DNA of 64,000 nucleotides from Jiangella sp. DSM 45060. GTDB taxonomy: Bacteria > Actinomycetota > Actinomycetes > Jiangellales > Jiangellaceae. The translations under genes were made by a program, and so were the position numbers. How positions within the stretch are numbered: the first letter of the stretch is position 1; every line of letters begins with the position of its first letter. Positions 21,048-39,797 of this stretch are shown here, piece by piece. The DNA is taken from assembly GCF_900105175.1 (NCBI RefSeq), contig NZ_LT629771.1, forward strand, positions 4,039,501-4,103,500, read 5' to 3'. A model generated the notes under the pieces. It did not search any database and was not told the DNA's origin. It saw only the letters and a list, made by a program, of their open reading frames with translations.

Positions 21048-21123
21048 TCCCGCATAGCTCAATTGGCAGAGCATCTGACTGTTAATCAGAGGGTTCCTGG
21101 TTCGAGTCCAGGTGCGGGAGCCA
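21048..21123 (+). tRNA. tRNA-Asn(GTT), including encoded CCA
   Basis: The acceptor stem pairs TCCCGCA with TGCGGGA, the anticodon loop CTGTTAA carries GTT, the T arm holds GGTTCGAGTCC, and discriminator G is followed by CCA at 21121-21123. The 3' part from 21075 is duplicated at 39747-39797, so it is the integration site of the mobile element. The tRNA is intact after integration. Confidence 0.97.
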
Positions 21124-21125
21124 AG
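21075..21125. repeat. attL, 51-bp direct repeat in tRNA-Asn 3' half
   Basis: It begins CTGACTGTTAATCAGAGG and ends GCGGGAGCCAAG, identical to 39747-39797. It covers the anticodon arm, T arm, acceptor 3' strand, CCA and two further bases. Sequence diverges on both sides, which defines the repeat limits. Confidence 0.96.
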
Positions 21126-21132
21126 TACAACT

Positions 21133-21171
21133 GACCAGCGCAAATGCCCGAAGAGGGCAGGAGCGCTGGTC
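21133..21171 (+). terminator. Nested hairpin after tRNA-Asn
   Basis: The outer arms GACCAGCGC (21133-21141) and GCGCTGGTC (21163-21171) are perfect; the inner arms are TGCCC and GGGCA (21145-21159). It probably terminates the tRNA transcript. It lies inside the element, so it came with integration; the related chromosomal sequence after attR (39805-39830) keeps only the inner hairpin. Confidence 0.6.
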
Positions 21172-21207
21172 TTGCATGCCGTCGTCACAGCATCTAACTT
21201 AGCGTCT

Positions 21208-22119
21208 ATGACGGACGCCAACAAGGCACTCCTGCGGTCGTTCACCCGCTCGCTGCGCATCGCCAGGCGCTCTGATCGGACCATCCAGTCCTACGCTGAG
21301 TCCGCCGACCTGCTGGCAGCCCTCTACCCCGGCGTCGACTTCGAGTCCATGACTCGCGAGCACGTCGAGACGTTCATCGAGGACCAGCTCTCCCGGCACA
21401 AGGTGACCACTGCCAGTGTGCGCTACCGGAACCTGCGGCGGTTCTTCAACTGGATGGTCCACGAGGACTACATCGAGCGCTCTCCCATGGCCAAGATGAC
21501 CGAACCCTCGGTCCCCGAAGCCCCCGTGCCGATCCTCACTGAGGCCGAGCTGCGAGCCCTGTTGAAGGCCACCGGAGGCAAGGACTTCGAGAGCCGGCGC
21601 GACCACGCCATGATCCGGCTCTTCCTCGACACCGGGATACGCCGCGCCGAGATGGCGCGACTGTCGCTGGACGATGTGGACCTGGACGTGCACGACGTGA
21701 TCCACGTGGTGGGGAAGGGCAACCGGGGTCGTGCGGTCCCCTTCGGGGCCAGGACTGGTCAGGCGCTCGACCGCTACTTGAGGGAGCGGTCGAAGCATCC
21801 CAAAGCTCGTCTCGTGGTCGAGCGCGACGGAGAGATGGTCACTCCGTTCTGGCTCGGGCAGAAGGGAGCCATGACCGACAGCGGCATCCAGCAGATGCTC
21901 AAGCGCCGAGGAGCCCAGGCCGGTGTACCCGACCTCCACGCACACCGGTTCCGGCACACGTTCAGTCACCAGTGGAAGGCGGCCGGCGGCGACAGCAACG
22001 ACCTGATGCGCCTGACTGGCTGGCGCTCCCCCGCGATGGTGGCGCGCTACGGTGCCAGCGCCGCTGACGAACGGGCGCACACGGCTCATCGCAGGCTCTC
22101 CCCCGGCGACCGGCTCTAG
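21208..22119 (+). CDS. int: Tyrosine recombinase/integrase
   Basis: This is a 303-residue phage-type integrase with an N-terminal SAM-like core-binding domain (about 8-95) and a C-terminal catalytic domain. The visible catalytic residues are R145 in DTGIRRAE, K170 in VVGKGNRG, H246 and R249 in [10 protein letters not shown]272 in GWRS, and the nucleophile Y281. All are present, so it should be active. It lies 82 bases inside attL, the normal place for an integrase, and would recombine the 51-bp site. Its stop overlaps the stop of the convergent gene at 22116 as CTAG. Confidence 0.96.
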
Positions 22120-22373
22120 GCCGCTCGGGCGCGGCTGGACTTGTACGCCAGGCTCGTCATGTGCTTGCGTCTGGCGCTCTCTGCGAGCTTGCGGCGGGTG
22201 CCCTCGGGCAACAGGCCGTCGGGGTCCACCTCGCGCTCGAACCGGGCCAGCAGGCCATCCTGACCCCGCCTGGCGTTCGCCGTGCGGTTGGCCTCCCTGC
22301 TCCACCTAGCGTGGGCGGCCAAACGTGCCCTCATGGTGCGCTGCTCCGGGGTCAGGGTCTTGGGTGCGGCCAT
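22116..22373 (-). CDS. Small basic protein, actinophage-type hypothetical
   Basis: This is an 85-residue Arg/Lys/Ala-rich protein ([20 protein letters not shown] to the C-terminal [19 protein letters not shown]). It is predicted all-helical. Similar short proteins with the pattern [30 protein letters not shown] are common in actinobacterial phages and integrated elements. No enzymatic motif is seen; nucleic-acid binding is possible from charge. It is convergent with the integrase and may be transcribed with the minus-strand genes upstream. Confidence 0.75.
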
Positions 22374-22462
22374 GCTGGCGCGCCTCCCTCTCGGGTAGGC
22401 GCACCGGCCTCATGCGCAGGATGCTGGGCGCGACTCCAGCCTTGATCCGCTAAGCCTCGTGG

Positions 22463-22660
22463 TCAGTGATGCGTGTGCCGCTGGCGACGCAACGGTGCGT
22501 CGTGCTCACAGCGACGAGAGCCTTCAATGGACCCGCAGTCCCACACGCGGCCGGCGAACCGGCCGCACGCAGAGCAACGCAGAACCGCCACGGGGCGGCC
22601 TGGCTTGGTCCACGTTGTGCTCACACACAAAGCGTGACAGAGGTTGCATAGCGCTCGCAA
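22463..22660 (-). CDS. Candidate small zinc-ribbon protein
   Basis: This is up to 65 residues, with CNLC near the N-terminus and CSAC 24 residues later, a zinc-ribbon spacing. The best start is a TTG at 22660, which is weak. The C-terminus is rich in Arg and His. It could be a DNA-binding accessory protein of the element, or a spurious frame. Confidence 0.4.
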   Translation of the reverse strand: MRALCNLCHALCVSTTWTKPGRPVAVLRCSACGRFAGRVWDCGSIEGSRRCEHDAPLRRQRHTHH

Positions 22661-22700
22661 CCGACATCGACGGCGCAGGCCAAGGGGCGAACGCCTGGCG

Positions 22701-22938: not shown

Positions 22939-23037
22939 GCACGGAGTTCTCCCCTGTCGTTGATGGATGCCCCCCGAGGCTGGGAGATCGTGGCACCCAC
23001 CGGCAGGAGTCAGGCAACGGGTTCGGGGAAACGCGGG

Positions 23038-23259
23038 CTACAGCCAGTCCTGTTTGCCCAACCATGTGCGTAACGTGTTGCGGTTGACGCCCGCGAGGGC
23101 GGCAGCCTGAGATTCTGAGATCTCACCCGCTTGGACCAGTCGCACGGTGGCAGCTCGAAGCTGCTCCGTGACCTCAGCCCGCTTGCGTGTCAGTGCCTCG
23201 CGCTCGGTGGCCAGGCGTCGAACCTCGCGCATGAGCTGGTCGTCTGGCACGTCGGTCAT
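23038..23259 (-). CDS. Small helix-turn-helix protein
   Basis: This is a 73-residue protein. A charged coiled-coil-like N-terminus (REVRRLATEREALTRKRAEV) is followed by an HTH: ISESQAAALAGVNRNTLRTWLGK. This is the layout of small phage DNA-binding proteins that may act as repressor, excision or replication factors. It lies in the minus-strand early-like group. Function is not assigned. Confidence 0.72.
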   Translation of the reverse strand: MTDVPDDQLMREVRRLATEREALTRKRAEVTEQLRAATVRLVQAGEISESQAAALAGVNRNTLRTWLGKQDWL

Positions 23260-23336
23260 TGTGTCACCCCCGCTCAGCTATCGTCACAAGCAAGGGACCG
23301 GGCAGCTAGCCTCTGCCCGGTCCCGATCCCTTGCGC

Positions 23337-23588
23337 TCAGACGGCAGCCCGGCTGCGCTCGATTGCGGCGATCTCGGCGTTCATGCTGTCCAGCTCGGCC
23401 TCCATCTCGCGGATCGATGCCATGATCTGAGCCAGCTCGCCGTCGTCCTCGGACCCGTGCGCGGCCCGCTCGTCGGCGGGCAGCATGGCCAGGCACTCGG
23501 TCCAGGAGAGGACAGGCTTGCCGCCCCAGCAGCTCTCGTAGTAGGCGTCAGCGTCGAAGGTGTCTGCGGTGTTGATGTGCTTGGCCAT
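23337..23588 (-). CDS. Small acidic element protein of unknown function
   Basis: This is an 83-residue protein. The middle VLSWTECLAMLPADERAAHG resembles the product at 22701. The C-terminus is a likely coiled coil (ELAQIMASIREMEAELDSMNAEIAAIE). AGGAGG just before the ATG at 23588 gives a strong ribosome site. Two palindromic operators at 23616-23664 lie 28 bases upstream, so it is probably the first gene of a repressed leftward transcript. Confidence 0.72.
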   Translation of the reverse strand: MAKHINTADTFDADAYYESCWGGKPVLSWTECLAMLPADERAAHGSEDDGELAQIMASIREMEAELDSMNAEIAAIERSRAAV

Positions 23589-23664: not shown

Positions 23665-25081
23665 GCCTACGAGTTCATGGCAGCAGGTCAGCGGTGCTAG
23701 AAGGGCTGAATGTACGGGCGCGTAGCCTCTTACGCGTACAAATAATGGTGGGCGCGTTGCGCCATGCACCCAGGAATATTGATAACCAGTCTCAATACCC
23801 CTGCATCGGGTGTCATGAGCGTAGGCTTTGACGCTACTGTCATGCCACTTGCCGGCACATAGAGGGCCTAGGCCCGTGACCAGGGGTGTAAGTGAACCTG
23901 TGGGTCCAGCGTCGCCCTGGCCTGGCGTTCTGGCTCCGTTCTCGGCGTGTCGCGCGGCGTGTCGCCCGCTGACCAGGGGTTTTCTGCCACTTTTGGCAGG
24001 ATCTTGACCCCCCGATGCTTAATCCCGGCCCGCGCTCTACATACTGAGGGCACTTCCAAATGTGCGTCAAACTTTGGGTTTCTGGCCCCGTGGTCCACAC
24101 GTTAAACAGCCCCGCAATATGCCCTGCAAACTGGGTGGTAGGGGGTGCAAATACCGGGTACCAAAGAGGGTACAAACTAGGGGGTAGTAATCCTTGGCCC
24201 TGAACCCCCGCATCTAGGCCCCCAACAGACCCCGCATCGGGGCTCCTGGCTCTAGGGACGGCCGGGCTTGCGCCCGTCCTAGAACCTGGTGGGCACTCCA
24301 TGGGAGATCTTCCGAACGTTCGGAAGATCTGTAAGCAATCGCCACGCGGCGGTAATCCAGGAGCGTTCGGTACTCAACGCCGATCTCGTCGGCGTAGTTT
24401 TCAGCGGCGACGGATGAAGAGAATGGGCCATGGTCACCGAGGCTCTGAGGTCGTCGCGCCAGCGGCGGCCGAAGAGCCGAGGGTACCGAGCAAGGAGCCT
24501 GGCCCTAGGGGACTGCCTGGCGGCAGCCCTTGCCGAGGTGCTAGGTCAAGGGCCTGGTCCAAGCGCTAAGTCTGGGGAGGGCGGTTACGCCCGACCCCTT
24601 GGCCCGGACCTTCTCCTTTCTCTGGTCGCTGCAAGCGGACCCCGACGGAGTCGGGTCCGCGCCTAGGACTCCTGGTGGCGCCGTCCAGCGCCCGGCGTAC
24701 GCCGGTCAGCGCGCGGCGGGTCCTGGCAGACGGAGGCTAGACCTTGGCCATGGCTCTGGGGTCGCCTACGGGCGCAAGCGCCCTCGGCTCCCAGCATTAA
24801 GGCTTAGGTGACCATGCGGCGGCGGGCAGCGGCCTCGGCGTACGCCGGCCCCGCGATGCGCCGGGGCATGGCTCTAGGTGCGAGCGCGGCGAGCCGTAGG
24901 CGAGCTAGCGAGCCTTGGGACAAGGACAGGTTCTCTATAGGCGGTGTCCCATGTCCCAGCACCATTCCCGCAGGTCGAATCCAGAGTGCATGTTCTTAGT
25001 TCCTGGTCCGGAGTCGTTAGCTTGCAAGCGCTAATCACCGCATGGGACAATTCTATTGAGAGCAAATCGGGGGAGGTTGTC
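23665..25081. other. 1.4-kb non-coding region of the element, candidate replication/control region
   Basis: No convincing gene is seen; the short reading frames lack ribosome sites and family features. It contains repeated GGGTACCAAAG/GGGTACAAAC words near 24155-24180, a hairpin at 24250-24283 (TCTAGGGACGG/CCCGTCCTAGA), the 26-bp palindrome at 24305, CCGGCGTACGCCGG at 24692-24705, its 12-base core again at 24836-24847, and many CTAGG-like words between 24500 and 24880. Direct repeats plus palindromes next to a RepA-like ATPase gene fit a replication origin, which is inference. Small RNAs cannot be excluded. Confidence 0.45.
24305..24330. repeat. Perfect 26-bp palindrome
   Basis: The left half is AGATCTTCCGAAC and the right half its exact reverse complement, with no spacer. 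It is too long to be chance in a window of this size. Candidates are a binding site for an element-encoded dimer, a resolution site for the serine recombinase, or part of an origin. Confidence 0.8.
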
Positions 25082-25326: not shown

Positions 25327-26328
25327 ATGGTGAGAGACATCGAGATCCCTGACGAGCCGCCTTTCATCATCGGTGAACTGGTGCACGAATCGGCCACGCT
25401 CTTGTACGGGCGACCCGAGGCGGGGAAGTCGTACTACGCCATCTCCATCGCCGCCGCTGTCACCACTGGATCGCCGTGGCTTGGTAAGCCGACGCAACAG
25501 CGTCGGGTGTTGTTCCTTGGGTTAGACCCTGGGCAGAACCGACAGACGCGCCGCCGTGTGGAACTCCTGCCCGCTGACGCCAACTTCCTGGTCTCCACGG
25601 TGCGGCCGGGGAAGGACGATGCCTGGTGGTCCGCCTTCGCGGACTGGGCTCAGGGCGAGGGCATCGGCCTGGTGATCGTCGACAACCTCAAGCGGCTGCT
25701 CTCTCGGGGCTCGGTCAATGACGATGCCGCCGTGGGCGAGGTGCTTGACCACCTGGACATGCTCGTGGACCGGGGCATTGCCGTGCTCCTGATCCACCAC
25801 CAGGGCAAGGCCGGCGAGTCCGGACAGCCCAAGACGACGCCGATGGGCGCCAGCTGCATCGAGGGCTGGGCGCGGCACCTGATCCGCGTTGAGCGCCAGT
25901 CCGGCACACGCAAGTGTGACCTCATCGTGGAGGGCAACGACGTCGACCCGTTCAGCGTGACAACGATCCACGTTCCCGAGGGAGACGGCGAGCACGGCGC
26001 CTTCTTCACCGTTGCCGGTTCGGCGTCGTCGAGCAAGGTCAGCAGGATCGAGCAGGAGGTCACTCGTCCGGACTCGATGGTGCGGATTGCTCGCGCTGTC
26101 CTGGACGCGGGGCAGACGTTCATGAGCGTCAATGCCGCTGCGCGCCACCTCGCGGAGGTTGGCGTTGAGGGCGAGGAACCTCGCAACACAGAGGCATGGA
26201 AGAAGGCACTCCAGCGCGGCGTGTTCAAGGACCTGTACCTATTGGGCGGCAACGGCCAGCCCGTGCAGGCCGGTCCGACGCTTCAAAGCGTCGCGACGTG
26301 GAGGAAGCCCTCCGAAGCTGCCGCCTGA
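25327..26328 (+). CDS. RepA/RecA-like AAA ATPase, probable replicative helicase-type protein
   Basis: This is a 333-residue P-loop ATPase of the AAA_25/RepA type. Walker A GRPEAGKS is at 28-35, Walker B LVIVDN at 115-120, and LLIHHQGK at 154-161 sits at the motif-3 position. The C-terminal 100 residues may form a winged helix (SMVRIARAVLDAGQTFMSVNAAARHLAEVG). Such proteins load at or unwind plasmid and phage origins. GGAGG before ATG 25327 is chosen over TTG 25303. It follows the non-coding region that may be the origin and precedes the sigma-like gene. A packaging role is less likely. Confidence 0.82.
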   Translation: MVRDIEIPDEPPFIIGELVHESATLLYGRPEAGKSYYAISIAAAVTTGSPWLGKPTQQRRVLFLGLDPGQNRQTRRRVELLPADANFLVSTVRPGKDDAWWSAFADWAQGEGIGLVIVDNLKRLLSRGSVNDDAAVGEVLDHLDMLVDRGIAVLLIHHQGKAGESGQPKTTPMGASCIEGWARHLIRVERQSGTRKCDLIVEGNDVDPFSVTTIHVPEGDGEHGAFFTVAGSASSSKVSRIEQEVTRPDSMVRIARAVLDAGQTFMSVNAAARHLAEVGVEGEEPRNTEAWKKALQRGVFKDLYLLGGNGQPVQAGPTLQSVATWRKPSEAAA

Positions 26329-26410: not shown

Positions 26411-27322
26411 ATGAGTGAGCCCTTGGGCGAGGACAAGGTCACGTTGTGGCCAGCTGTCGAGCGATGGCTGCGAACCGTGCTCCCGGAAGCCTCCGACACG
26501 TTCCGTCGCCGTCTGGTCCGCGCGATCATCGCCGCGGCTCGCAAGGTCGAGGACGTCGACCCCGGCGACGCCGCACAGCAGGGCCTCATGTGGATCGAGC
26601 GCAGCCCGGAGAAGTTCGCCCGATGGGCCGACGAGGGCAAGCCCGCCCGCTTCCTGCGGCGGGCGCTCAAGCGCAAGATGCGGGAAGCCTGTCAGGCGGA
26701 GCACCCGCGAATGGGCAACCTGCGGGTACGCATCCCTGACGAGGGAGCCTGGGATGATGCAGGCGCCTTGTCGGACGTCGAGATCGGCTGGGCCTACGCC
26801 ACGGGCGAGGCGGACACGATCGAGGACGGACGCGAGCCAGACCCCCTCTACCGCCGCCACGTCATCCACCACGCGACAAACACAGCCGCCATCAACGCGA
26901 TCCTCACCGATGCCGGCGAGGTCATCCCGGCAGGCACCCGGCGGGACTTCGACGTGATCCGCGTCGGCGGTCGTTGGGTCGAATCCCCGGTGTGGATCAC
27001 GTCCATCACGGGTGACCGGTACCTGATCGGCCGGCTTCACCCGGCCGACAAGCACGCCAAGCCGTACTGGACCCGGATTACCGCTGAGCGGTACGAGACG
27101 CAGCGCGAGCGTGATGTGCTCGCCGCTGCGCTGGCGACGTTGACCACACACGAACGCCGGTTGCTGGCGGACCGATACGCCTCGGGAAAGAAGAAGCCAT
27201 TCAGGGACATTGCTGAATGGAATGGGATTGACAAGGACACTGCGAGATCCCACATTCGGACAGCTGAGACCAAGGTCACAAAGTTTGTTGCCGAGAATGA
27301 CTTGCCTTTCGGTGAAACGTAG
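26411..27322 (+). CDS. Sigma-70-like transcription factor of the element
   Basis: This is a 303-residue protein. The N-terminal part (about 45-100: EDVDPGDAAQQGLMWIE then KPARFLRRALKRKMREAC) resembles sigma region 2 of ECF-like factors. The C-terminal LTTHERRLLADRYASG followed by FRDIAEWNGIDKDTARSHIR is a region-4 HTH. A 120-residue insertion between them is unlike ordinary ECF factors. It lies just upstream of the structural-type genes with a strong terminator at 27354, so it may switch on late transcription. The role is inferred. Confidence 0.72.
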   Translation: MSEPLGEDKVTLWPAVERWLRTVLPEASDTFRRRLVRAIIAAARKVEDVDPGDAAQQGLMWIERSPEKFARWADEGKPARFLRRALKRKMREACQAEHPRMGNLRVRIPDEGAWDDAGALSDVEIGWAYATGEADTIEDGREPDPLYRRHVIHHATNTAAINAILTDAGEVIPAGTRRDFDVIRVGGRWVESPVWITSITGDRYLIGRLHPADKHAKPYWTRITAERYETQRERDVLAAALATLTTHERRLLADRYASGKKKPFRDIAEWNGIDKDTARSHIRTAETKVTKFVAENDLPFGET

Positions 27323-27493: not shown

Positions 27494-27874
27494 ATGACCG
27501 ACGTGACGACGATGACCGAAGGCGAATTGAATGCTGGCGATTCACCCAGGGATTCCGACCACGGGACGCCATTGGATGTCCGAGATCTCGCGGACGACGC
27601 CAGCAAGCGCAAATTCAGGCAGGAGATCGGTCGCCTCACTGAGAGAGTCGGGAGATTGAAGGCGGCACTGCGTGAGTGCATGACGCATCGCGACGAGCAC
27701 AAGAAGCAACGTGACGAAATGCTCGAAGCATGCGACCTCATGAGGGCCAGTTACCGGGCTCTTGAATCGCGTCTTGAAGAGGCGCTTGTGGAGAACTACC
27801 AGCTCCGCGCAGAACGACAGTCCAGGGAAGAGGCGGCCCCCGCATCCAGCGGGGACACCGCCGCCCAGGACTGA
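27494..27874 (+). CDS. Coiled-coil protein of unknown function
   Basis: This is a 126-residue acidic/charged protein. Residues 38-115 form a long predicted coiled coil (RQEIGRLTERVGRLKAALRE ... ALESRLEEALVENYQLRAER). AGGAGA lies 6 bases before ATG 27494. It is the first gene after the terminator, so it may start the late-type transcript. The size and helical nature would suit a scaffold or adaptor, but nothing in the sequence proves that. Confidence 0.65.
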   Translation: MTDVTTMTEGELNAGDSPRDSDHGTPLDVRDLADDASKRKFRQEIGRLTERVGRLKAALRECMTHRDEHKKQRDEMLEACDLMRASYRALESRLEEALVENYQLRAERQSREEAAPASSGDTAAQD

Positions 27875-27887: not shown

Positions 27888-27937
27888 GCCGGGCGCCCGT
27901 GGTGTGGGGTCCAGGCGCCCGGCAACCAGACCCCACA
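27888..27937 (+). ncRNA. Interleaved perfect inverted repeats: possible pseudoknot leader
   Basis: Arm A GCCGGGCGCC (27888-27897) pairs perfectly with GGCGCCCGGC (27914-27923). Arm B TGTGGGGTC (27903-27911) pairs perfectly with GACCCCACA (27929-27937). The order A-B-A'-B' is that of an H-type pseudoknot or of two mutually exclusive hairpins. It ends 8 bases before the AAGGAG ribosome site of the gene at 27958, so it may control its translation or transcript readthrough. Confidence 0.6.
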
Positions 27938-27957
27938 TGGACCCCAAGGAGAACGAA

Positions 27958-28347
27958 GTGACCGAGTACCAGATTCCGGACATCCCGTCTGATTGGGAAG
28001 CCCAGACCGACGACGAGGCATGGCTGGCCGACAAGCTCAAAGCGTCGAACGCTGAGCTTGAGCGACTCCGCACCCAGGCTCAGGCGCCTGAGACAGCGGC
28101 CGTCGAACAGCAGGTCGCCACGCCGGCCGTGGATGAGTCCGCGCTACGGCAGCAGGTTGCCGAGGCCAAGTCGTACGAGGACTTGAACGCGGTCCTGGCT
28201 GGTGCCGCAGCGCCCTCGCGGCTAACGACGGAGCAGGTCGTTGCCCAGCGTCAGGCTGGCATGACCGAAGCCCTCCAGGCGGACTCGAAGGAGTCCTTCT
28301 ATGCCGCGCTTGAGCGGTCGGGCAACGCTGGGAGCCAGCTCCGGTGA
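27958..28347 (+). CDS. Acidic helical protein, scaffold-like
   Basis: This is a 129-residue protein starting at GTG 27958 after AAGGAG. It is rich in Ala, Glu and Gln (LKASNAELERLRTQAQAP; ALRQQVAEAKSYEDLNAVLAG) with disordered linkers. Small helical proteins of this kind precede capsid genes in many actinophages, yet no capsid gene follows here. The next start overlaps its stop (GTGA), beginning a four-gene coupled run. Confidence 0.62.
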   Translation: MTEYQIPDIPSDWEAQTDDEAWLADKLKASNAELERLRTQAQAPETAAVEQQVATPAVDESALRQQVAEAKSYEDLNAVLAGAAAPSRLTTEQVVAQRQAGMTEALQADSKESFYAALERSGNAGSQLR

Positions 28348-28553
28348 CCACGGTGACGATCGACCTTGGTGCGACCCCCGAGCCGTTCGACGAGGCGGCG
28401 TGGCGTCGGCGCCTGACTGGCGTAGAGCGGGATCGCTACTACGAGCTGATGTCCGAGATGCAGGCCGCCCGCGAGGCGGCCCGGCTGTGGGATCAGGTCG
28501 AAGCCGGCATCGAGGCCTACGAGATCCTGACCTGCAAGGCGGTGACCGCATGA
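28344..28553 (+). CDS. 69-residue helical protein
   Basis: Its GTG start overlaps the previous stop and its own stop overlaps the next ATG, so it is part of a coupled run. It is mainly helical (WRRRLTGVERDRYYELMSEM). No family is recognised; translation coupling is the main evidence that it is real. Confidence 0.6.
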   Translation: MTTVTIDLGATPEPFDEAAWRRRLTGVERDRYYELMSEMQAAREAARLWDQVEAGIEAYEILTCKAVTA

Positions 28554-29262: not shown

Positions 29263-29280
29263 GGCCATTCCGGAATGGAC

Positions 29281-32200: not shown

Positions 32201-34503
32201 GGGGCTACGGCGACAACTTCCGTTCGGTCGCGTCGAGCGCCCCGTTCCACCGCGTGATGACCTCGACCTACGAGTCGGAGCTTCGGCGCCTGCGAACTGA
32301 GGCCGGCCGTGGAGTGTCTTCCACCATCGGTGAGCAGGACCACGCCGCGACGTGGTTGCGGATCATCAACGACCAGCTCCGCCAGGACCCCGCCGTCCGG
32401 GCCAGGCTCGAAGGCAAGTCCCTCGACACGTGGGTCAAGGGTGAGGGCAGGGAGCACGCCAGCCGCATCCCGTGGCGTAGTGCCCAGCCCTACGTCTGGG
32501 AAACGGAGCTGGACAACCACCTGAATGCCCTGCTGCCGACTGAGGCTCTGCGGGCCAGGGTGATCTCCGGCGAGGAGATCACGGAGCTGGATCTTCAGCG
32601 CATCATCGACTCGCGTCCGATGGATGCCCCGAAGGCGCTGGACTCCAACGCCGTCGACATGTCGGTGGGTGGTCGCCTGTCCCAGATGCTCAGCGGCGCC
32701 AGGGACAAGACGTACAACTTCCTGGCCACCCTGCCGACGGATGCGCTCGTGCGGCATCCGTTCTTCAACCGCATGTACAAGAACCGGCTCAAGGCGGCGG
32801 CGGACACCCTGGGTGCCGATGAGTTCGTGGAGAAGGCGACGCTCCAGACGATGGAGCGCCAGGCCCGCGAGTATGCGCTGAGGCAGACCCGGCGCTACAT
32901 GTTCGCAGGCGACGAGATGACCGGCCTCACGCACAACCTTCGACACCTCACGGTGTTCATGGGCGCGTGGCAGGAGTCGCTGATCCGCTGGGCACGCATC
33001 CTCTCCGAGCGGCCCGAGCAGTTCGTCAGGCTCTACGCGAACGGGTGGCAGCAGATCGACGACACCGGCTTCGTCGAGTTCGTTGACGCGAACGGCCTCG
33101 GCAAGGACGACCCCGACCATGGGTCGCTGGACTACATCCGCGTGCCGTGGGCGGATGACTCGCTGAGGTTCTTCGACAAGCTGATGCCTGGTGACCAGAG
33201 CGCCGCGGCTGAGGTCTTCTCAGACTTCAAGATCAACAAGAACGGTTTGAACACCGTCATCCAGGGCAACCCCTGGTGGCTGCCGGGAACGCATCCCTTC
33301 GTTCAGGTGGCCGCCTCGTGGTACCTCAAGGACCATCCGGATCTTGCCGATGAGAACTCCTTCAGCTCGTTCCTGACGAAGTACCTCACGCCCCTGGGGC
33401 CGGTCGGGCTCAAGGAGACGTTCCTCCCTGCTGCCTGGCAGCAGCAGACGCTCCGCTACCTCCAGGGTGCGGACGATCCGGTGTTCAACCGGCAGATGCT
33501 CACCAGAGTCCACCAGCAGCGCCTAGCCGACTGGGAGGCCTCCGGCCGGCAGGGTCCGAAGCCGGAAGCGCAAGAGTCCCTGGACATCGCCAAGGGCGCT
33601 CAGGCTGCCTGGATCGTGGCCCGGTTCATGTCCCCGGCGTCGTTCACGCCCGAGGTCAAGGGTCAGTTCTACATCGACCAGGCGAACAAGATCCAAGCCG
33701 AGCTTGGGTACGACGACAAGGCGTTCCTGACGTACCTCAACGAGTTCGGCGATGACCAGTACATGTGGTGGCAGAGCACCACGCAGAACCACACTGGCGT
33801 CCCGGCCACTTCGTCAGGGTTCAAGCAGTCCGAGAAGTACAAGGCCCTCATCGAGCGCAACCCCGAACTGGGGTTGCTCCTGGTGGGCCTGGGCACCGAG
33901 ACGGACGAGTTCAACTATCAGGTCTACCGGCATCAGTCCGAGACGCCGATCTCTGGCCTCGACTCCACCACACAGCGGTCACCGCTCGGTCCCGAAGCGG
34001 CCGCAGCCGCTGCTGAGGAGCGCAAGGGCTGGTCGGAGTGGCAGTACTGGAACAACAAGATCGACGCCGAGCTGTCGGCCAGGGGCCTTCGCTCCGTCGA
34101 ACAGCGTGGAGCTGGGGACCTGAAGCAGCTAAAGGCGATCCTCCGCGATGACATCGCCACACGCTACGACGGCTGGCGCGAGGCCATGACCGCCTTCGAC
34201 ACCGACAAGTCCTACGGAATCGTCAACTCGGTCCGCCGCCTGATCGACTCCGGGGACGCTCCGGACCGGCCGGATTGGCGTGGGCTTGAAGAGTTCGTGG
34301 ATTGGCACGACCGGATAGGTGCCGAGCTTGACGCCCGGTCCATGCTCGGTGGCTCCCGCAACATCGAGGCTGAGTCCAACCTCGACCTGCTGTACGCCTA
34401 CCACGTCAAGGTCGGTGAGCTGAAGCAGGAGAACTTGATGTTCGCCGAGGTCTACGACCGCTTCCTCGACAACCACTCCATGACCCTCGGTTCAGGTCTA
34501 TAA
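29281..34503 (+). CDS. Giant protein (about 1740 residues), virion/ejection- or polyvalent-protein-like
   Basis: It makes up over a quarter of the element. No catalytic motif is obvious. The N-terminal 300 residues are helical (DFMQEWFLDPLTVATAG), a central stretch reads YWKPMVLFRGGYVVRNVADE near residues 735-755, and the C-terminal 500 residues are helical with repeated Trp-rich segments (LRHLTVFMGAWQESLIRWAR, QYMWWQSTTQ, WSEWQYWNNKID). Segments of the 'receive/RGGYVVRN' type occur in very large phage proteins of actinobacteria, including ejected internal virion or polyvalent proteins; this is family impression, not a search result. ATG 29281 is chosen; in-frame ATG 29275, ATG 29284 and GTG/ATG-like 29212 are alternatives, none with a strong ribosome site. 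It follows two hairpins and precedes appendage genes. Confidence 0.72.
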   Translation: MMNRSSTWWANRVGEAAAATVSPVQRQPLFGVAHDIGTMTSLTPSQRQAALNAMQTVSEDEALRQQQLQGMLGWFDDLTSRVRGPKKRTIFDRIRDTTASAFGAVGDALGAVKGGLESANEWQADLLGYGDAQDRAREISGEGLEKYDKYVATPVERGLSTPLQLGNILDEAQRNESWSDSFEALLDGTTYEEAWHRTEDATFGQSVADMFTDPEMREQAYEAGFGEDGLPLDANYRELRQSNTAYNFVSGTADFMQEWFLDPLTVATAGAGRMRATIVGDLDRMPRGSAATMRRIVSAPDDALESLRGRAWNPVAQRSLQLRERIGQLRDQVRAGEMDQTDLIENVRAFRTDPTAAALFYDLSRARKWDADNLAYVDEFDDDVFYHGVGAILGSPTSMDKLRVAFGDPGRQIADQIDVLQNKSLPALDDEVRLAQTRFEDALTDPNISGFQAYDRAFNAQKDIATLRREGEGLHAQLEEYESYGRFINSLDDRIAGASTNVVPTATGSIVDTASHTYRSGPHGRVATVLKYPLAALRSRPGVMDLSRNIYQESAAYLTEAGAIAGNKGLERVIAANGGNLDLDGWHRKLTNHAASASNDVQRRAVAAQVEMSGIDLVAAKHGLTGDEARAIASMYNRRRHELFRDIERQGAENRAYSAAAEGETIKYRYSNNGAEETIELPLTLTQLQNTFMPMDLKALDNILTQHAGGLRGQLARKGEQADWVYNLFAQYWKPMVLFRGGYVVRNVADESLRAVAAANSLLALPDMAKAGLIGMANLAPRTLNRVSRTWNRAERRRYRRRQQQNPLMVREGTEWVYEVNPDRLKSVEKNLTPVEKYNRLRLAAGASGKRPPRAPAVVSKLQTAADGGQPFAFDVASNKSRDLSTVTRLELDDAVVPDVAGIARYAEEHSDLLSHADGVLTVTPVKGGFQVGIGRRGARYANLFSTIDQIGSRAGTVKGVKGAKLQHTGAFERGYGDNFRSVASSAPFHRVMTSTYESELRRLRTEAGRGVSSTIGEQDHAATWLRIINDQLRQDPAVRARLEGKSLDTWVKGEGREHASRIPWRSAQPYVWETELDNHLNALLPTEALRARVISGEEITELDLQRIIDSRPMDAPKALDSNAVDMSVGGRLSQMLSGARDKTYNFLATLPTDALVRHPFFNRMYKNRLKAAADTLGADEFVEKATLQTMERQAREYALRQTRRYMFAGDEMTGLTHNLRHLTVFMGAWQESLIRWARILSERPEQFVRLYANGWQQIDDTGFVEFVDANGLGKDDPDHGSLDYIRVPWADDSLRFFDKLMPGDQSAAAEVFSDFKINKNGLNTVIQGNPWWLPGTHPFVQVAASWYLKDHPDLADENSFSSFLTKYLTPLGPVGLKETFLPAAWQQQTLRYLQGADDPVFNRQMLTRVHQQRLADWEASGRQGPKPEAQESLDIAKGAQAAWIVARFMSPASFTPEVKGQFYIDQANKIQAELGYDDKAFLTYLNEFGDDQYMWWQSTTQNHTGVPATSSGFKQSEKYKALIERNPELGLLLVGLGTETDEFNYQVYRHQSETPISGLDSTTQRSPLGPEAAAAAAEERKGWSEWQYWNNKIDAELSARGLRSVEQRGAGDLKQLKAILRDDIATRYDGWREAMTAFDTDKSYGIVNSVRRLIDSGDAPDRPDWRGLEEFVDWHDRIGAELDARSMLGGSRNIEAESNLDLLYAYHVKVGELKQENLMFAEVYDRFLDNHSMTLGSGL

Positions 34504-34554: not shown

Positions 34555-34578
34555 CCCATGCCCTCATTAAGGAACTCA

Positions 34579-35652
34579 ATGGGTACCAGCGTTCGCTACG
34601 ACGGTGCATGGCGCCGTATTTCGGGCGGCGATCCGCCTAGGGGCGGAGCACCGATCGATCCTGACGGCCCTCTGGACATTCCGTTCTCGGGTGGCCCTCT
34701 GTCGGATTACGTGCGGAACCCGACAGCCTTCATTGACCCTTTAGCGATGTCGCCCGGCTGCCGCATCCCGACCGAGGCCCTGGAGGTTCTAACTCCGGCC
34801 CAGGCCCGCACCAGGGCGATGAATACCGGTCGCCTGGACGGCGTACTGATCAATTCTCGCCTACAGATGAACGAGCCCTTCTGGGGTGATGTCGTGGGTG
34901 AGGACATCGTCATTTATGGCGATGCCGCTATCGGGGCCACCGATGGCTCCACGGTAGGCACGGGCTACGGCATCGAGGCGTGGTGGTCCAGCTCCTCCGT
35001 GTTGCCGCCCGCCGGCAAGCGTCCGCACTTCAAGCACATCACCATCCTGGGCAAGGCGGCCCAGCCTGGCTACGTCTTCAACGCCAGCGCCAACCCATAC
35101 ACGCAGCGCGGGATCATCGGCGGTCCCATTCGGCTGTCTGGCGTGCTCGTCCGAGGTTGCGGAGCATCCGCCCTGCTCCACACGCGGGACGTGCTGATCG
35201 AGCGGTTCAGGTTCATGGACTACACGCGAGGCAGCGGAACCTCACACGTCGGCGGCATGCAGGTCACTCACGCCAACGGAACCGCGATCTTCCGTGATGG
35301 ACATATCAGCGGCTATTTCGGGCCGAACGCCGGCTTCAATGCCGAGGTCGGCCAGCATATCGGCTCTGCCTGCATCCAGAACGGCTCGACCCTGCAAACA
35401 CAGATCAACCGGATGCTATTCGAGAATGTCGCCTTGTCCGGTGGCAGTTACGGAATCATCGGCCCGAGTGGCTGGAGAGGTGGCGTCACGCCACCCTCTG
35501 ACGGCTTGGTATCTGATTCAGGCTGGGCCGCTCTACGGCACTGTAAATCCCTTCGCGATCACCGAGAGAGCGGCGTAGCCGCGGCCGGGAATCTCGGTGA
35601 ATTCGACATGGATGAAACCAACGTCTACGCCGACAACGGCGCCCCCTGGTAA
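34579..35652 (+). CDS. Putative appendage/receptor-binding protein (beta-helix-like)
   Basis: This is a 357-residue Gly-, Ser- and Ile-rich protein with regularly spaced short hydrophobic strands (DIVIYGDAAIGATDG, HITILGKAAQPGYVFNAS, GVLVRGCGASALLHTRDVLI, GTAIFRDGHISGYFG). This is the texture of right-handed parallel beta-helices in phage spikes and of pectate-lyase-like folds. No catalytic residues are evident. AAGGAAC precedes ATG 34579. It follows the giant gene and precedes the PKD protein, an order that fits an adhesion module. An extracellular polysaccharide-binding role is inference. Confidence 0.6.
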   Translation: MGTSVRYDGAWRRISGGDPPRGGAPIDPDGPLDIPFSGGPLSDYVRNPTAFIDPLAMSPGCRIPTEALEVLTPAQARTRAMNTGRLDGVLINSRLQMNEPFWGDVVGEDIVIYGDAAIGATDGSTVGTGYGIEAWWSSSSVLPPAGKRPHFKHITILGKAAQPGYVFNASANPYTQRGIIGGPIRLSGVLVRGCGASALLHTRDVLIERFRFMDYTRGSGTSHVGGMQVTHANGTAIFRDGHISGYFGPNAGFNAEVGQHIGSACIQNGSTLQTQINRMLFENVALSGGSYGIIGPSGWRGGVTPPSDGLVSDSGWAALRHCKSLRDHRESGVAAAGNLGEFDMDETNVYADNGAPW

Positions 35653-35664: not shown

Positions 35665-37011
35665 ATGGCTTTCATTGCAGCAGAAACCAACATCGGCGGC
35701 TCCGATGTTCCAGGCATCACCGTCCTGGTGCCGGCAGCCGCCTCGGCGGGTGACCTGCTCATCGTCACGGTCACCCTCCAGGCGGATGAGGTCACGAGCG
35801 TCACCTCTGGTTTGACCCTGGTTACCGAGTCATCTGGCACTACTCAATCCGCCGGTCGCATCGAGGTCTACAAGGGCACGGTCACATCCGGCGGCGCGCT
35901 GGACCCCGGTGACACTATCCTGCTCACCATTCCGTCTAGCTCCCCGTGGGCCGTTTCCTGCGAGGCGTACGACGACGATGACGTGCTGGATTTCGCGGTC
36001 AGCTACCCCGCGTCAGGCAGCGTCTCGACGGTGACCTCGCCGGGTGCAACGGCAACTCAGCCGTGCATCGCCAAGCACATGTACGGCGTCATCTCCGCTG
36101 CCTCTGTCACCGGTTCGCCGATCACCTGGACGGCGCACGCCAGCACGACCAAACGCGTAGACGTGTGCTGCACTAACGCTGTGGCCGGGGGTACCCGCCA
36201 GGGCCTCCACATGACCGCAGACGAGACAGTCTCCGGTGCGGGTGCTGTATCCGGTCGGCTCGCCACGCCGTCGTCCAACGTTCAGGGTCAGTCCATCACC
36301 CTTCTCATCGGCACAGCCGTGGCCCAGCCCACGGCCAACGCCGGCCCGGATCAGTCCGTCGCCGCGAGCGCTGTCGTCAACCTTGACGGCTCCGCCTCAG
36401 GCGGAGCGGGCGCACCGTTCACCTACCAGTGGACGCAGACCTCGGGCACCGCTGTCACGCTGAACGACGACACGGCCGAAAACCCGACCTTCACCGCTCC
36501 GGCCGCCAGCTCCGTGCTGGTCTTCAGTCTGGTGGTCGAGGACGTCAGCAGCGTTCCGTCCCCGGCGGACACGGTCACCATCACGGTGACCGGCGCTGAG
36601 GACATCGCGGTTCCCGTTGCTGACGTGGATGTCGCTGGCTGGACCTTTGTCGGCGCCGCCACTGCGTGGCAGGCGCTGTCCGATGGGACGGACGCCACCT
36701 ACATCGTCAGCCCCGAGAACCCGACCGACGAGGACTGCCGTGTTGACCTGTCCGAGCTGACCGACCCCGATTCCGGGGATACCGTCCTGATCCGCGTGCG
36801 TGCCAGGCGGCAGGATGCCGCCAGCGCGACCGTGGGCGTTCAGATCGTTGAAGGTGCCAGCACGGTTCGAGCGACACTCACGGCTCAGGCCATCGCTTCC
36901 GGGGACACCTTCACGGAGTTCACGTATCAGTTCAGCCCTGCTGAGATCACGGGCGTTGTTGACTGGGCCGACTGTGCCGCCGTCCCGATCGTTACGGCGG
37001 TGGCGGCATGA
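35665..37011 (+). CDS. PKD/Ig-domain phage structural-type protein
   Basis: This is a 448-residue protein. Residues about 1-200 form a beta-rich domain (VPGITVLVPAAASAGDLLIV) of the kind seen in actinophage minor tail or decoration proteins. A PKD/REJ-like domain follows at about 218-312 (TANAGPDQSVAASAVVNLDG, FTYQWTQTSG, PTFTAPAASS), then a beta-sandwich C-terminus. There is no signal peptide, so export as a host protein is unlikely. It starts 13 bases after the previous gene (AAGGA site) and overlaps the 37-residue ORF. Confidence 0.72.
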   Translation: MAFIAAETNIGGSDVPGITVLVPAAASAGDLLIVTVTLQADEVTSVTSGLTLVTESSGTTQSAGRIEVYKGTVTSGGALDPGDTILLTIPSSSPWAVSCEAYDDDDVLDFAVSYPASGSVSTVTSPGATATQPCIAKHMYGVISAASVTGSPITWTAHASTTKRVDVCCTNAVAGGTRQGLHMTADETVSGAGAVSGRLATPSSNVQGQSITLLIGTAVAQPTANAGPDQSVAASAVVNLDGSASGGAGAPFTYQWTQTSGTAVTLNDDTAENPTFTAPAASSVLVFSLVVEDVSSVPSPADTVTITVTGAEDIAVPVADVDVAGWTFVGAATAWQALSDGTDATYIVSPENPTDEDCRVDLSELTDPDSGDTVLIRVRARRQDAASATVGVQIVEGASTVRATLTAQAIASGDTFTEFTYQFSPAEITGVVDWADCAAVPIVTAVAA

Positions 37012-37121: not shown

Positions 37122-37342
37122 ACCTCATCCAGTACTGCGAGACGCATCGTTCCCCGCACTGCAAGCCGGCCAAGTGCCCCGACGTCCGGCTCTACCACTG
37201 GCACCCGGCCACTCAGCACGAGGTGACGTGTCAGGGACCGCACTGCGGGAAGACCTTCACTGCCTCCCGCTCGACAGCCAAGTACCACGCCGATAGCTGC
37301 CGTCAGGCAGCCAACCGAGCCAAGCCGCGGTTGTCACGCTAA
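37118..37342 (+). CDS. 74-residue Cys/His zinc-finger-like protein
   Basis: The GTG start is coupled to the preceding peptide. Cysteines and histidines are spaced YCETHRSPHCKPAKC, then CQGPHCGKTF, then KYHADSCRQAAN; the second half looks like a C2H2/C2HC-type finger. Basic C-terminus. A DNA-binding or packaging accessory role is possible. A hairpin follows at 37355. Confidence 0.62.
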   Translation: MNLIQYCETHRSPHCKPAKCPDVRLYHWHPATQHEVTCQGPHCGKTFTASRSTAKYHADSCRQAANRAKPRLSR

Positions 37343-37766: not shown

Positions 37767-38034
37767 CCCGAGTACTGCTGAGCGGGTCTGTGCATGGCAC
37801 CTCGACCTGAGCGATTGGGCCGGCCAGTTGGGCCGGCTCCGCTGGCCCACACGGCTCGTGGTGCAGGGGCGTCGCAGGGTCGAGGGCAGTCGCAACTTCG
37901 TGTCGTTCACGTGGCACCCGGACGACTGGGAGGGCTCCAGCGGGAGCCCCACCCATGACGAAGCGGTCAGGGTCGAGGAAGTCAGCACCCTGGTCTACCC
38001 CATCGATGAAGAGGCCGACCTAGTCGCGGCGTAG
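37645..38034 (+). CDS. 129-residue Cys/Trp-containing protein
   Basis: GTG 37645 follows AGGAGAACC. It contains CPVCG near residue 16 and a Trp-rich middle (HLDLSDWAGQLGRLRWPTRL), ending in an acidic tail. It overlaps 122 bases of the preceding gene in another frame. No family is recognised. Confidence 0.58.
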   Translation: MPEYRWSPLTLGRLTECPVCGPPDDGDERSTGWRWRWGSADPSTAERVCAWHLDLSDWAGQLGRLRWPTRLVVQGRRRVEGSRNFVSFTWHPDDWEGSSGSPTHDEAVRVEEVSTLVYPIDEEADLVAA

Positions 38035-38277
38035 CTCGCGGCGCACGTCCTCGGCACGAACCCACGCCAACACCTCCTGTCGAGGCCAGGACGGCGACGT
38101 GCCGGGGACCTCGAAGCTGACCATGACGTGGGTAGTCGTCCATCGTCTCGCGGTGGCGGCCTTGAACAACTCCCCGATCTCGGCGTCGACCAGCCGCACG
38201 AAGCACGGGATCGCGTCCTGGTTCCGCGCCGGGATACCCTGCGGTGGGTGCTCTTCGTTCGCGTACCGCCCTGCCAT
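38020..38277 (-). CDS. 85-residue small protein with a truncated paralog outside attR
   Basis: The core FVRLVDAEIGELF then TTTHVMVSFEVPG then EVLAWVRAEDVRREL is matched by the fragment at 40289-40490 (FVRLVDSELGERY, TRTHVMVSF, MLAWVRA). The ATG at 38277 lies 21 bases from the palindrome GTTCGACT..AGTCGAAC (38299-38316), a likely operator. It is convergent with the gene ending at 38034 (15-base overlap). Function unknown; conservation across two elements suggests a maintenance or control role. Confidence 0.68.
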   Translation of the reverse strand: MAGRYANEEHPPQGIPARNQDAIPCFVRLVDAEIGELFKAATARRWTTTHVMVSFEVPGTSPSWPRQEVLAWVRAEDVRRELRRD

Positions 38278-38298
38278 AAAAGCCAGAATAGAACTAGT

Positions 38299-38316
38299 GT
38301 TCGACTCTAGTCGAAC
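38299..38316. promoter_or_regulatory. Candidate operator palindrome GTTCGACTCTAGTCGAAC
   Basis: Eight-base arms surround a CT centre. It lies just upstream of the minus-strand gene at 38277 and inside the last codons of the lipoprotein gene, so it could control the downstream gene alone. Confidence 0.5.
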
Positions 38317-38645
38317 GCTCCGACACTCTCGTCCGGGCACATGGCACTACCGGCCGCCGTGACGATGGATGCGTCCGCCTGGGCGCCCTGGCGGGCCGTC
38401 TCGGACATGAACCCATCCGCCGACCCGCCCTTGCTGAACCACGTGCATACCTCGATGCCTGCATCGATGAGCATCGCCTCGACGTCCGCATGTTCGCCCT
38501 GCAGTGCCATCGACCAGATGGGGTCCAGGAGCGAAAGTGCGTTCAGGTAATCGGCCTGCTGGTCAACTGTCGGCCGGTACTCGTCGGATGAGCATCCCGA
38601 CAGTGCCAAGGCGACGCCAACCCCCATGATCCACAGTGCCCTCAT
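38307..38645 (-). CDS. DUF732-like lipoprotein
   Basis: This is 112 residues with a lipoprotein signal: a short hydrophobic helix, then LALSGC with the lipidated cysteine at 18. The mature part (YLNALSLLDPIWSMAL, GIEVCTWFSKG, AAGSAMCPDE) has the two-cysteine helical layout of DUF732 proteins common in actinobacteria. Surface lipoproteins carried by prophages often block infection by related phages; here that is only a possibility. Confidence 0.72.
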   Translation of the reverse strand: MRALWIMGVGVALALSGCSSDEYRPTVDQQADYLNALSLLDPIWSMALQGEHADVEAMLIDAGIEVCTWFSKGGSADGFMSETARQGAQADASIVTAAGSAMCPDESVGAFD

Positions 38646-38709
38646 GATGCCCCCCAGCTCATGACGATGACCTGCACGCTACTCCGCAGGTCGGACACAT
38701 CAGAGACGC

Positions 38710-38752
38710 AGAACGCCCCTTCCCGGTTGACGCTGGGAAGGGGCGTTCTTTG
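38710..38752. terminator. Perfect 15-bp-stem terminator
   Basis: AGAACGCCCCTTCCC (38710-38724) pairs with GGGAAGGGGCGTTCT (38735-38749), loop of 10, then TTT on the plus strand. It lies just past the serine recombinase stop and can end that leftward transcript. Confidence 0.82.
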
Positions 38753-38760
38753 CGTGTGGG

Positions 38761-39453
38761 CTAGGCAGTTGCGCGCTCGTAGATGGTGCGCACGGTCATG
38801 GCCGACCACCGCTTGGCCCGCCGGGGCTTGCGCCCCTCCTGGTCCAGAGTGGCTGCGATGGTGCGGTACGAGGTGCCGGCCTGGCGTAGCTCGACGATCC
38901 GGGCCTTGGTCACCTGCTCGACCGGGTCGGGCACCTCGTCTCGATCCCGGCCCTTGCCGTGGCCCTTGTACCCGAACGCGTAGCTGCCGGTCGCCTTCTT
39001 GCCAGCGGCGGCCTTCGCCGCCCGGCCGTCCTTGAGCCGCTTGACCACCATCAAGCGGTCAAGCTCGGCGAACACCCCGACCATCAGGCGCATGGCCGTG
39101 CGCATCGGGTCGGACGGGTCGTCCTGCATGACCTCGCCCTGGTCAGCCGTGAACACCCGGTAGCCCCGGCACCACACGGCGGCCAGGATCGCCTCCTGAG
39201 TGGTCACGGCACGGGCCAGGCGGCCCAGGTTGGCCACGATGAGGCCGTCAGCGCGTTCGAGGTCTTGGAGGGCGGCGGACAGTCCAGGGCGGTCCACGGC
39301 ATCGGTGGCCCCAGAGATGGCGTCCTGGTGCCAGGAGATCACCTTGTGGCCGTTGGCCTTGGCCCAGCCCTTGATGTCCGCACGCTGAGCGTCCGGGCCG
39401 TAGGCGTCAAGCTGCCCGTTGCTACTCACCCGGAGGCAGGCCACGAGCTTCAT
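38761..39453 (-). CDS. Serine recombinase (resolvase/invertase family)
   Basis: This is 230 residues. The N-terminal catalytic domain starts MKLVACLRVSSNGQ with nucleophile S10. GLIVANLGRLARAVTTQEA supplies the arginine motif, and the long E helix FAELDRLMVVKRLKDGR follows. The C-terminal HTH (IVELRQAGTSYRTIAATLDQ then RWSAMTVRTIYERA) is of the Hin/resolvase type. ATG 39453 is coupled to the zinc-ribbon gene by a 4-base overlap. Small size argues for a resolvase or invertase rather than a large integrase; its site is not identified. Confidence 0.92.
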   Translation of the reverse strand: MKLVACLRVSSNGQLDAYGPDAQRADIKGWAKANGHKVISWHQDAISGATDAVDRPGLSAALQDLERADGLIVANLGRLARAVTTQEAILAAVWCRGYRVFTADQGEVMQDDPSDPMRTAMRLMVGVFAELDRLMVVKRLKDGRAAKAAAGKKATGSYAFGYKGHGKGRDRDEVPDPVEQVTKARIVELRQAGTSYRTIAATLDQEGRKPRRAKRWSAMTVRTIYERATA

Positions 39454-39641
39454 CGCTGAACGTCCTTCGGGTGTGGGCTCATGTACCGGACCCGGCCACC
39501 GCACTTAGGGCAAGTGTCCGTGTGGCTGCCGCGAGAAACCGAGCCGCCGGGGCATGTGCAGATGTGCTCTGCGTAGCTAGGACGGTCGTAACCGTCCCAG
39601 ATAGGGTCATCGTCAAGCCACCGGAACAGTCTTCTGAGCAT
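39450..39641 (-). CDS. Zinc-ribbon protein of 63 residues
   Basis: GGGAGG precedes ATG 39641. Cysteines occur in HICTCPGG and DTCPKCGGRVRYM, a zinc-ribbon arrangement, after an amphipathic N-terminus (MLRRLFRWLDDDPIW). It is translationally coupled to the serine recombinase, so it may be a recombination accessory factor. It is the last gene before attR. Confidence 0.68.
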   Translation of the reverse strand: MLRRLFRWLDDDPIWDGYDRPSYAEHICTCPGGSVSRGSHTDTCPKCGGRVRYMSPHPKDVQR

Positions 39642-39746
39642 GTCGCCTCCCTCAGATCCGAAGATCGACGACACAGCTCCTAACTGTTGTTCTCTCGCTC
39701 CCCCGATTCCTGCGTTTCCGCAGGTAAGCATGCCATTCGGGCAATG

Positions 39747-39797
39747 CTGACTGTTAATCAGAGGGTTCCTGGTTCGAGTCCAGGTGCGGGAGCCAAG
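39747..39797. repeat. attR, 51-bp direct repeat
   Basis: It is identical to 21075-21125. It carries the 3' half of tRNA-Asn without a 5' half, so it is not a working tRNA gene. Similar, not identical, sequence follows both copies (CTGACCAG.GCAAA.GCCCGAA). Confidence 0.95.

Follow-up and report, generated by a model that had tools for sequence, protein, structure and literature searches.

According to the accessible part of PMC10690885, the Streptomyces satellites MiniFlayer and MulchRoom encode the small and large terminase subunits (TerS and TerL), portal and capsid and have siphoviral helpers, the phages of cluster BE, and packaging of P4 and of some Staphylococcus aureus pathogenicity islands (SaPIs) relies on the helper terminase acting at cos sites. 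A survey of actinobacterial prophages supposes, in the part available, that many small elements may be satellites; its main text does not mention Jiangella (PMC10023795). Here we describe an element located between positions 21075 and 39797 of a 64,000-nucleotide stretch (the window) of Jiangella sp. DSM 45060, the genome of which is a single contig of 7.49 Mb. We consider it quite probable (roughly 0.77) that this element is an integrated phage satellite that is packaged by a Beephvirinae-like podophage helper at a site resembling a terminal-repeat end, and that it supplies its own version of a giant phage protein.

The element resembles MiniFlayer and MulchRoom in that these are small actinobacterial satellites with terminal-repeat genomes, one of them with a tyrosine integrase, but differs in that no TerS, TerL, portal or capsid gene was found in it and in that its giant protein and end-like site are shared with podophages (PMC10690885, same part). 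The likeness to cos-type SaPIs and P4 would lie in a packaging site used with a helper terminase and in having no capsid of its own (PMC10690885, same part), whereas the Jiangella element has a gene homologous to that of a large protein in the helper cassette and its helper would be podoviral. With phage-inducible chromosomal islands (PICIs) and capsid-forming PICIs it would share, in our model, an integrative and helper-dependent lifestyle, but it has neither capsid genes nor a convincing TerS. Podophages of the subfamily Beephvirinae, such as Immanuel3 and FlowerPower, have a homologous giant and a related motif at the terminal-repeat end, and a Jiangella relative of these phages has a fibre C-terminus in common with the element. 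In contrast to them, the element gave no match to TerL, portal, lysin or capsid, amounts to about 0.4 of their genome size, and has its own integrase, AAA_25 ATPase and set of small genes. Features of the element include the following (positions in the window; G005 is a Jiangella genome carrying a full podophage):

21048-21123, plus strand: tRNA-Asn(gtt), the integration target (ARAGORN, Rfam tRNA).
21075-21125: attL, overlapping the 3' part of tRNA-Asn (repeat search).
21208-22119, plus strand: tyrosine integrase, 303 aa from 21208, with an alternative frame start at 21112 (Pfam, NCBIfam, gene call).
23980-24073, plus strand: packaging-end-like site, core at 24004-24023 (DNA alignment to the G005 phage; phage-derived position weight matrices, PWMs).
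25327-26328, plus strand: AAA_25 (RepA/RecA-like) ATPase (Pfam AAA_25, E 4.3e-27).
29275-34503, plus strand: giant protein, 1742 aa, start at 29212 also possible (gene call, PHROGs phrog_10618, homology to Beephvirinae gp9).
34579-35652, plus strand: appendage-like protein at the gp10 position (position; Pfam, PHROGs, NCBIfam, tblastn).
35665-37011, plus strand: fibre-like protein with a PKD domain (Pfam, protein comparison).
39747-39797, plus strand: attR (repeat search).

The giant protein had been noticed in the initial annotation, and its open reading frame (ORF), ending at 34503, was found to encode a homologue of gp9. It matched phrog_10618, a family of unknown function (PHROGs, E 2.4e-53), and was homologous to gp9 in 29 Streptomyces phage records, with 23-26% identity and up to 76% covered. 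In Immanuel3 and FlowerPower the genes for TerL, lysin and portal and a number of small genes are followed by gp9 and then by gp10 and two wall-enzyme genes, which in Immanuel3 encode NlpC/P60 and SLT proteins. Abafar, a member of the same subfamily, has a podoviral particle (PMC11536984, accessible part). In IMG/VR, with one scan taking the best 80 of 97 matches, a giant homologue was found in 90 loci on 83 contigs, and all 90 loci contained a TerL, portal or capsid homologue. In the 14 loci lacking TerL and portal, no more than 1.3 kb of sequence precedes the giant, and each of these loci had a capsid match. The giant is therefore a regular member of a phage head and entry cassette. IMG/VR consists of contigs called viral, so satellites would be under-represented in it.

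Searches with the giant matched 5 of 99 relatives (own genome included), 7 of 393 genomes of the class, 1 of 5 and 4 of 341 genomes in two families and 5 of 396 genomes of the phylum, these sets being overlapping. The 13 genomes examined, from a total of 14 giant-positive ones, contained five full phages (G005, G012, G679, G806, and G948) and eight small elements from four families (G000, which is the window element, G003, G008, G109, G254, G596, G646, and G796). G806 was assigned by TerL and portal matches to a phage panel, and G948 by a portal, its contig beginning there. All eight small elements had an integrase or recombinase gene, the giant and their own flanking repeats, the spacing of which ranged from 15.85 to 20.35 kb and constitutes one size class. 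These repeats were located at tRNA-Arg (43 bp; G109 and G596), tRNA-Lys (47 bp in G254 and 66 bp in G646) and tRNA-Ala (47 bp in G796, where a shorter alternative exists); in G003 and G008 they are only 16-18 bp long and the ends are less certain. None of the eight matched TerL, portal or capsid of Immanuel3 and G005 by tblastn (E 1e-3), a panel that is perhaps too distant for G796. AAA_25 ATPases were found in the window element, G003 and G254 and, as a fragment, in G796, and SNF2/DEAD helicases in G254 and G109 (Pfam) and in G596 and G646 (tblastn). The AAA_25 proteins of the window and G003 had no counterpart in the phage loci examined, which span parts of phage genomes only. The anatomy of the element, the end-like site, the homologies and the recurrence were read directly from the sequence. 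On these comparisons the giant-bearing small elements are a recurrent class and not one decayed prophage; neither of the two refutations named in the initial annotation was borne out, since the capsid, portal and TerL homologues of a complete prophage were not found and, as to a decayed fragment of a larger prophage, the small elements of relatives have att repeats of their own and fall into one size class.

The absence of conjugation, terminase, portal, capsid and tail-tube genes, which the initial annotation had also noted, held up in all searches made. No TerL, portal, capsid or tail-tube match was obtained in PHROGs with 20 ORF queries (the gene at 38020-38340 not included), and a tblastn search of the 64-kb window with TerL, portal and capsid from two podophages found no match either. 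There was no lysin match in the element. Conjugation genes, including FtsK-like Tra and spread as markers of actinomycete integrative and conjugative elements (AICEs), were absent from the ORFs tested with Pfam, PHROGs and NCBIfam. The matches that came nearest were TerS-like, for the helix-turn-helix (HTH) protein at 23038-23259 (PHROGs, E 0.0047 and 0.025), and head-like, for an ORF at 34558 (PHROGs, E 0.062); all of these are weak. The TerL and capsid of the Jiangella podophage type were absent from the whole host genome and were each found in two of 22 family genomes, G005 and G012. Consequently, none of the three Jiangella elements (window, G003, and G008) shares its genome with a resident helper of this kind.

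Besides the giant and the fibre, one strong match was found between the DNA of the window element and that of the G005 podophage. The site at 23980-24073 aligned to positions 4794-4886 of the G005 phage region with 85% identity over 94 bp (E 2.6e-23), and its counterpart there lies about 0.6 kb upstream of the called TerL gene. The site is non-coding, better conserved than most of the giant gene, and also present in G003 and G008. A blastn search of the site region against the phage collection returned one 24-nt chance-like match only. In the records of Immanuel3, FlowerPower, Zeigle and Dennebes (4 checked of 29) the genome ends are direct terminal repeats of 253-275 nt, and in all four a related motif begins 42 nt before the right end of the repeat. 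If the record ends are the physical ends, this motif would sit where the terminase makes an end, and seven of the eight elements carry it.

To refine a 20-nt motif, we used 41 non-redundant regions that precede TerL in phages, excluding G005 and all small elements; the refinement was seeded with the matches to a model of three small elements and G005, and the shuffled regions used for comparison were not refitted. Thirty-five of the 41 regions scored above the 99% level of shuffled regions (12.1). When 677,060 positions in and around the eight elements and the G005 phage were scanned, eight scored at least 12, namely one in each of seven elements and one in the G005 phage. To limit circularity, we built the motif again, starting from the end of one isolate phage and leaving out Jiangellaceae, G679 and the small elements (36 of 39 regions used), and the same site was top-scoring in seven of eight elements, in G005 and in G012. 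With 400 simulated elements each, the number of draws scoring as high was 11 for the window, 20 for G003, 45 for G008, 1 for G109, 0 for G254, 0 for G596, 2 for G646, and 306 for G796.

The pattern TTGACCCCCSGNTGYTWAAT was composed for the site core after the sites had been seen, and up to one mismatch was allowed. It had exactly one match each in G000, G003, G005, G008, and G012, the Jiangellaceae with an element or phage, and none in the remaining eight of 13 genomes, which are Jiangella without either; control matches were zero. A second such pattern occurred once, inside the element, in G109, G254, and G596; it was found in none of 10 relatives lacking a giant match, nor in G646 or G796, and had one control match (G394). 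A one-mismatch match to the second pattern in G679 is located away from the phage of that genome and was taken as chance. In IMG/VR the 20-mer with one free base was present in two contigs only, a G005-type phage contig and L195 (IMGVR_UViG_3300021976_000202). L195 is metagenomic and has the end-like site, the giant, and a TerL and a portal that are 58% and 72% identical to those of G005; it is a candidate for the helper type in the wild. The site is a putative packaging site, recognized in silico, that would be common to the element and its helper type.

Within the pair tested, window and G003, the giant had a rate of nonsynonymous change (dN) of 0.28 and of synonymous change (dS) of 1.04 and is under purifying selection. 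On a tree of 42 giants, obtained by a quick method, the satellite label required seven changes, at least six of which were forced by starred branches. Shuffled labels required 7.5 changes on average, and 195 of 500 shuffles were as low as seven; the satellite label is therefore not clustered on the giant tree. The giants of the window and G003 paired with those of the Jiangella phages G005 and L195, the giant of G596 with that of the G679 phage from the same family, and the giant of G796 with that of G948, while the long branches of G254, G646, G796, and G806 leave some placements unsure. This pattern suggests repeated capture from, or exchange with, local phages.

Altogether, the homology of the giant to gp9, the lack of TerL, portal and capsid in eight elements and the shared end-like site lead us to read the element as a satellite. 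The initial annotation had suggested either a helper-dependent satellite or a new mobile-element family; this is supported, and the shared packaging-end-like site adds evidence for packaging by a helper. On entry of a helper podophage the element would be excised and replicated by its own AAA_25 protein, a putative satellite replication protein. The helper terminase would then cut and package element DNA at the shared site into helper-made heads. The satellite giant, probably an internal or DNA-ejection protein, would be built into the particles, replacing the helper version or beside it, possibly together with satellite fibres, and the particle would carry the satellite to a new cell where it would integrate at tRNA-Asn. 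More tentatively, and with somewhat more doubt than confidence, we propose a recurrent class of actinobacterial satellites marked by repeated capture of the helper giant, which would borrow heads and terminase and re-equip the particle for entry with their own giant and, in this case, fibres. Neither such piracy of an ejection machine nor a satellite of this type was found in the literature searched (subscription papers and preprints being outside its coverage).

A number of observations weigh against the satellite reading. What happens to the element DNA, from excision and replication to packaging and transfer, is inferred, as is what the giant does, and no helper phage is known for this strain. 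The assignment of the giant to the particle interior or to DNA ejection is based on gene order and on AlphaFold2 models that were all-helical and of low confidence, and a structure search gave no informative structural match. The generic motif is strong in G109, G254, G596, and G646, weak in the window, G003, and G008, and absent in G796, so that the case for the Jiangella elements rests on the direct alignment and the uniqueness of the pattern. For the phage of G679 the rebuilt, stricter PWM favoured another place, and three elements (G254, G596, and G646) have the motif close to their far end, on the opposite strand from the giant. The tblastn search detected gp10 in three of the eight small elements only (G003, G109, and G254). 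No capsid-size factor or packaging redirector was identified, no search being aimed at Sid or CpmAB. Finally, the giant tree by itself is also compatible with repeated reduction of phages.

That last point bears on the possibility that the element is the remnant of a decayed Beephvirinae-like prophage which has lost its head and packaging genes. Such decay would explain why the giant and the C-terminus of the fibre are phage-like, and the interleaving of elements and phages on the giant tree, since repeated deletion would yield the same; the giant of G646 is split over two frames, and in no Jiangella genome searched were both forms found together. We nevertheless regard it as very improbable, because the same size class, an integrase or recombinase, repeats of their own and the giant recur in all eight elements across four families, and the giant is under purifying selection. 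Furthermore, the small genes that precede the giant in the Jiangella elements had, among the matches listed, no convincing partner in the phages, and no AAA_25 counterpart was seen in the parts of phage genomes covered. About as little weight is given to an autonomous integrative element, plasmid-like or AICE-like, which has captured phage genes and moves without a helper. The RepA-like AAA_25 ATPase, the integrase and a palindromic non-coding region would all fit such an element, but conjugation genes were lacking among the ORFs tested, a site that a podophage has upstream of its TerL gene is kept better than most of the giant gene, and the giant recurs in other elements.

It is also conceivable, although unlikely, that the element is a satellite in which the giant, rather than working in the satellite particle, serves as a virion decoy, poisoning the assembly of the helper and protecting the host. 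Shorter or split giants such as those of G109, G646, and G796 would then be tolerable, and the helicases of four elements belong to a class that is also used in defence. The giants of the other five elements are of full length, in the pair tested the protein was under purifying selection, the window element carries a fibre-like protein in addition, and PADLOC gave no match for the giant, all of which speaks against the decoy reading. Satellites described so far redirect the size of the capsid or its packaging, or come with capsids of their own; a satellite that keeps a giant helper cassette protein would point to a different control point, DNA ejection or the internal core. The role of the uncharacterised gp9 family thereby becomes testable, and a giant without TerL together with a terminal-repeat-end-like motif provides a sequence signature for elements that searches with known markers may miss.

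The ends proposed in the initial annotation were confirmed. The direct repeat at tRNA-Asn is exact over 51 bp and 95% identical over 78 nt, with a spacing of 18,672, and the GC content of the element (0.60-0.69) is lower than that of most outside kilobases (0.70-0.80). The tRNA-Asn loci of relatives were compared, as the initial annotation had proposed, and the left flank was present in 12 of 12 Jiangella genomes searched. G004, with a left flank 96% identical, has an empty site in which right-flank DNA, from window position 40538 on, resumes 93 nt past the tRNA match. In G002, G005, G007, and G009 the right-flank DNA (from about 42.57 kb on) returns 0.4-4.4 kb past the tRNA, and a second att copy is absent. 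Such a copy was located 8-23 kb downstream of tRNA-Asn in G001, G003, G006, G008, and G010 (loci L046-L051) and on a separate contig in G011. The insertions of relatives at this tRNA were rejected as kin, since none of 20 window proteins, compared at E 1e-4, had a match in them outside the tRNA/att overlap. With a second att copy in five relatives and no protein in common with the window element, the tRNA-Asn locus is, as judged by this comparison, an integration hot spot. The approximately 2.7 kb to the right of attR (39798-42570) also had a lower GC content, 0.66-0.68 in the first 2 kb, and carries a 635-aa gene (40539-42446, minus strand). This region was unmatched in four relatives, its first 0.74 kb also in G004, and it is probably another accessory insertion.

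The remaining features of the element were:

22116-22373, minus strand: small protein, 85 aa, no assigned function (gene call; weak PHROG matches of unknown function).
23038-23259, minus strand: HTH protein, 73 aa; counterpart in the G008 element 69% identical over 67 aa (Pfam, protein comparison).
23337-23588, minus strand: small protein, 83 aa, no assigned function (gene call).
24692-24877, no strand: non-coding stretch with CGGCGTACGCCG palindromes at 24692-24705 and 24836-24847 (repeat search, DNA comparison).
26411-27322, plus strand: sigma-like protein (sub-cutoff sigma-70 similarity).
27494-27874, plus strand: small helical-looking protein, positional counterpart of a G003/G008 pair (gene call, comparison).
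27937-28347, plus strand: small protein with weak similarity to its G008 counterpart, E 0.0016 (comparison).
28344-28553, plus strand: small protein, 69 aa (gene call).
28550-28990, plus strand: small helical-looking protein; G008 counterpart E 3.8e-6, frame from 28301 (comparison).
28987-29187, plus strand: small protein, 66 aa; G003 homologue E 7.9e-13 (comparison).
38020-38340, minus strand: small gene, conserved in G008 with DNA 81% identical over 275 nt (DNA comparison, third-position bias).
38307-38627, minus strand: DUF732 lipoprotein-like protein (Pfam, frame from 38645).
38761-39453, minus strand: serine recombinase of 230 aa; G008 has one that is 73% identical at the corresponding place near the right end (Pfam, PHROGs).

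The integrase is complete, as had been claimed, with a Phage_integrase domain (E 1.9e-26) and a SAM-like N-terminal domain (Pfam). The claim of a RepA-like ATPase was likewise borne out by the AAA_25 match, and the protein has a homologue in G003 (29% identity, E 4e-9). Of the proposed sigma-like factor the similarity stood, but it stayed below cutoff (TIGR02937, E 1.7e-8, 34.3 bits against a cutoff of 42.9). Among the proposed appendage-like proteins, the one at 35665-37011 has the PKD domain and is 52% identical over 281 aa to a G005 prophage protein, the C-terminal part being what matches, whereas the one at 34579-35652 had no convincing family match and no gp10 similarity in Pfam, PHROGs, NCBIfam or tblastn. 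The non-coding stretch at 24692-24877 is partly kept in G003 (80% over 118 bp) and is a possible replication origin. Several of the small genes upstream of the giant are common to the window, G003, and G008; among the matches listed, none to the small genes of phages was convincing. The scan for promoters and terminators gave nothing above shuffles.

The element was also considered as a defence island. This was rejected, as PADLOC gave no match for the sigma-like protein, the giant, the fibre-like protein, the recombinase and two small proteins of the window and only a marginal mad8 match (E 0.0011) for the AAA protein. Dozens of PADLOC helicase models matched the G254 and G109 helicases, which are SNF2/DEAD proteins in Pfam and were read as generic. 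A 484-aa protein beside the giant of G596 was tried as a primase, for which Pfam gave no support. In G812 the giant match was weak, with a 214-aa frame. The shortest stretch of the giant that is shared, that of G646, aligns by BLAST with approximately residues 1083-1738 of the window giant. In the oriented G646 region (L171/L172) the giant was found at 16196-18618, divided between two frames (155 and 663 aa) that overlap, with the middle part absent, and is either a mini-giant or a broken gene. The G796 region (L184/L185, oriented) at about 1046-20814 comes from a genome outside the class and contains an integrase homologue, the AAA_25 fragment, a giant of 1488 aa and, by eye, a WhiB-like gene.

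The block at 38030-38304 was rejected as a non-coding site because of its third-position bias (35 of 67 substitutions) and an open minus-strand frame, which indicate a gene. To the right of the fibre gene, window positions 37128-37306 are kept in G008 (74%) and, as part of a more extended alignment, in G003; no gene was clearly called in this stretch. The serine recombinase at 38761-39453 may be an invertase or resolvase rather than an integrase; at the right end it is 73% identical between two elements, those of the window and G008, that seemingly integrate by different means.

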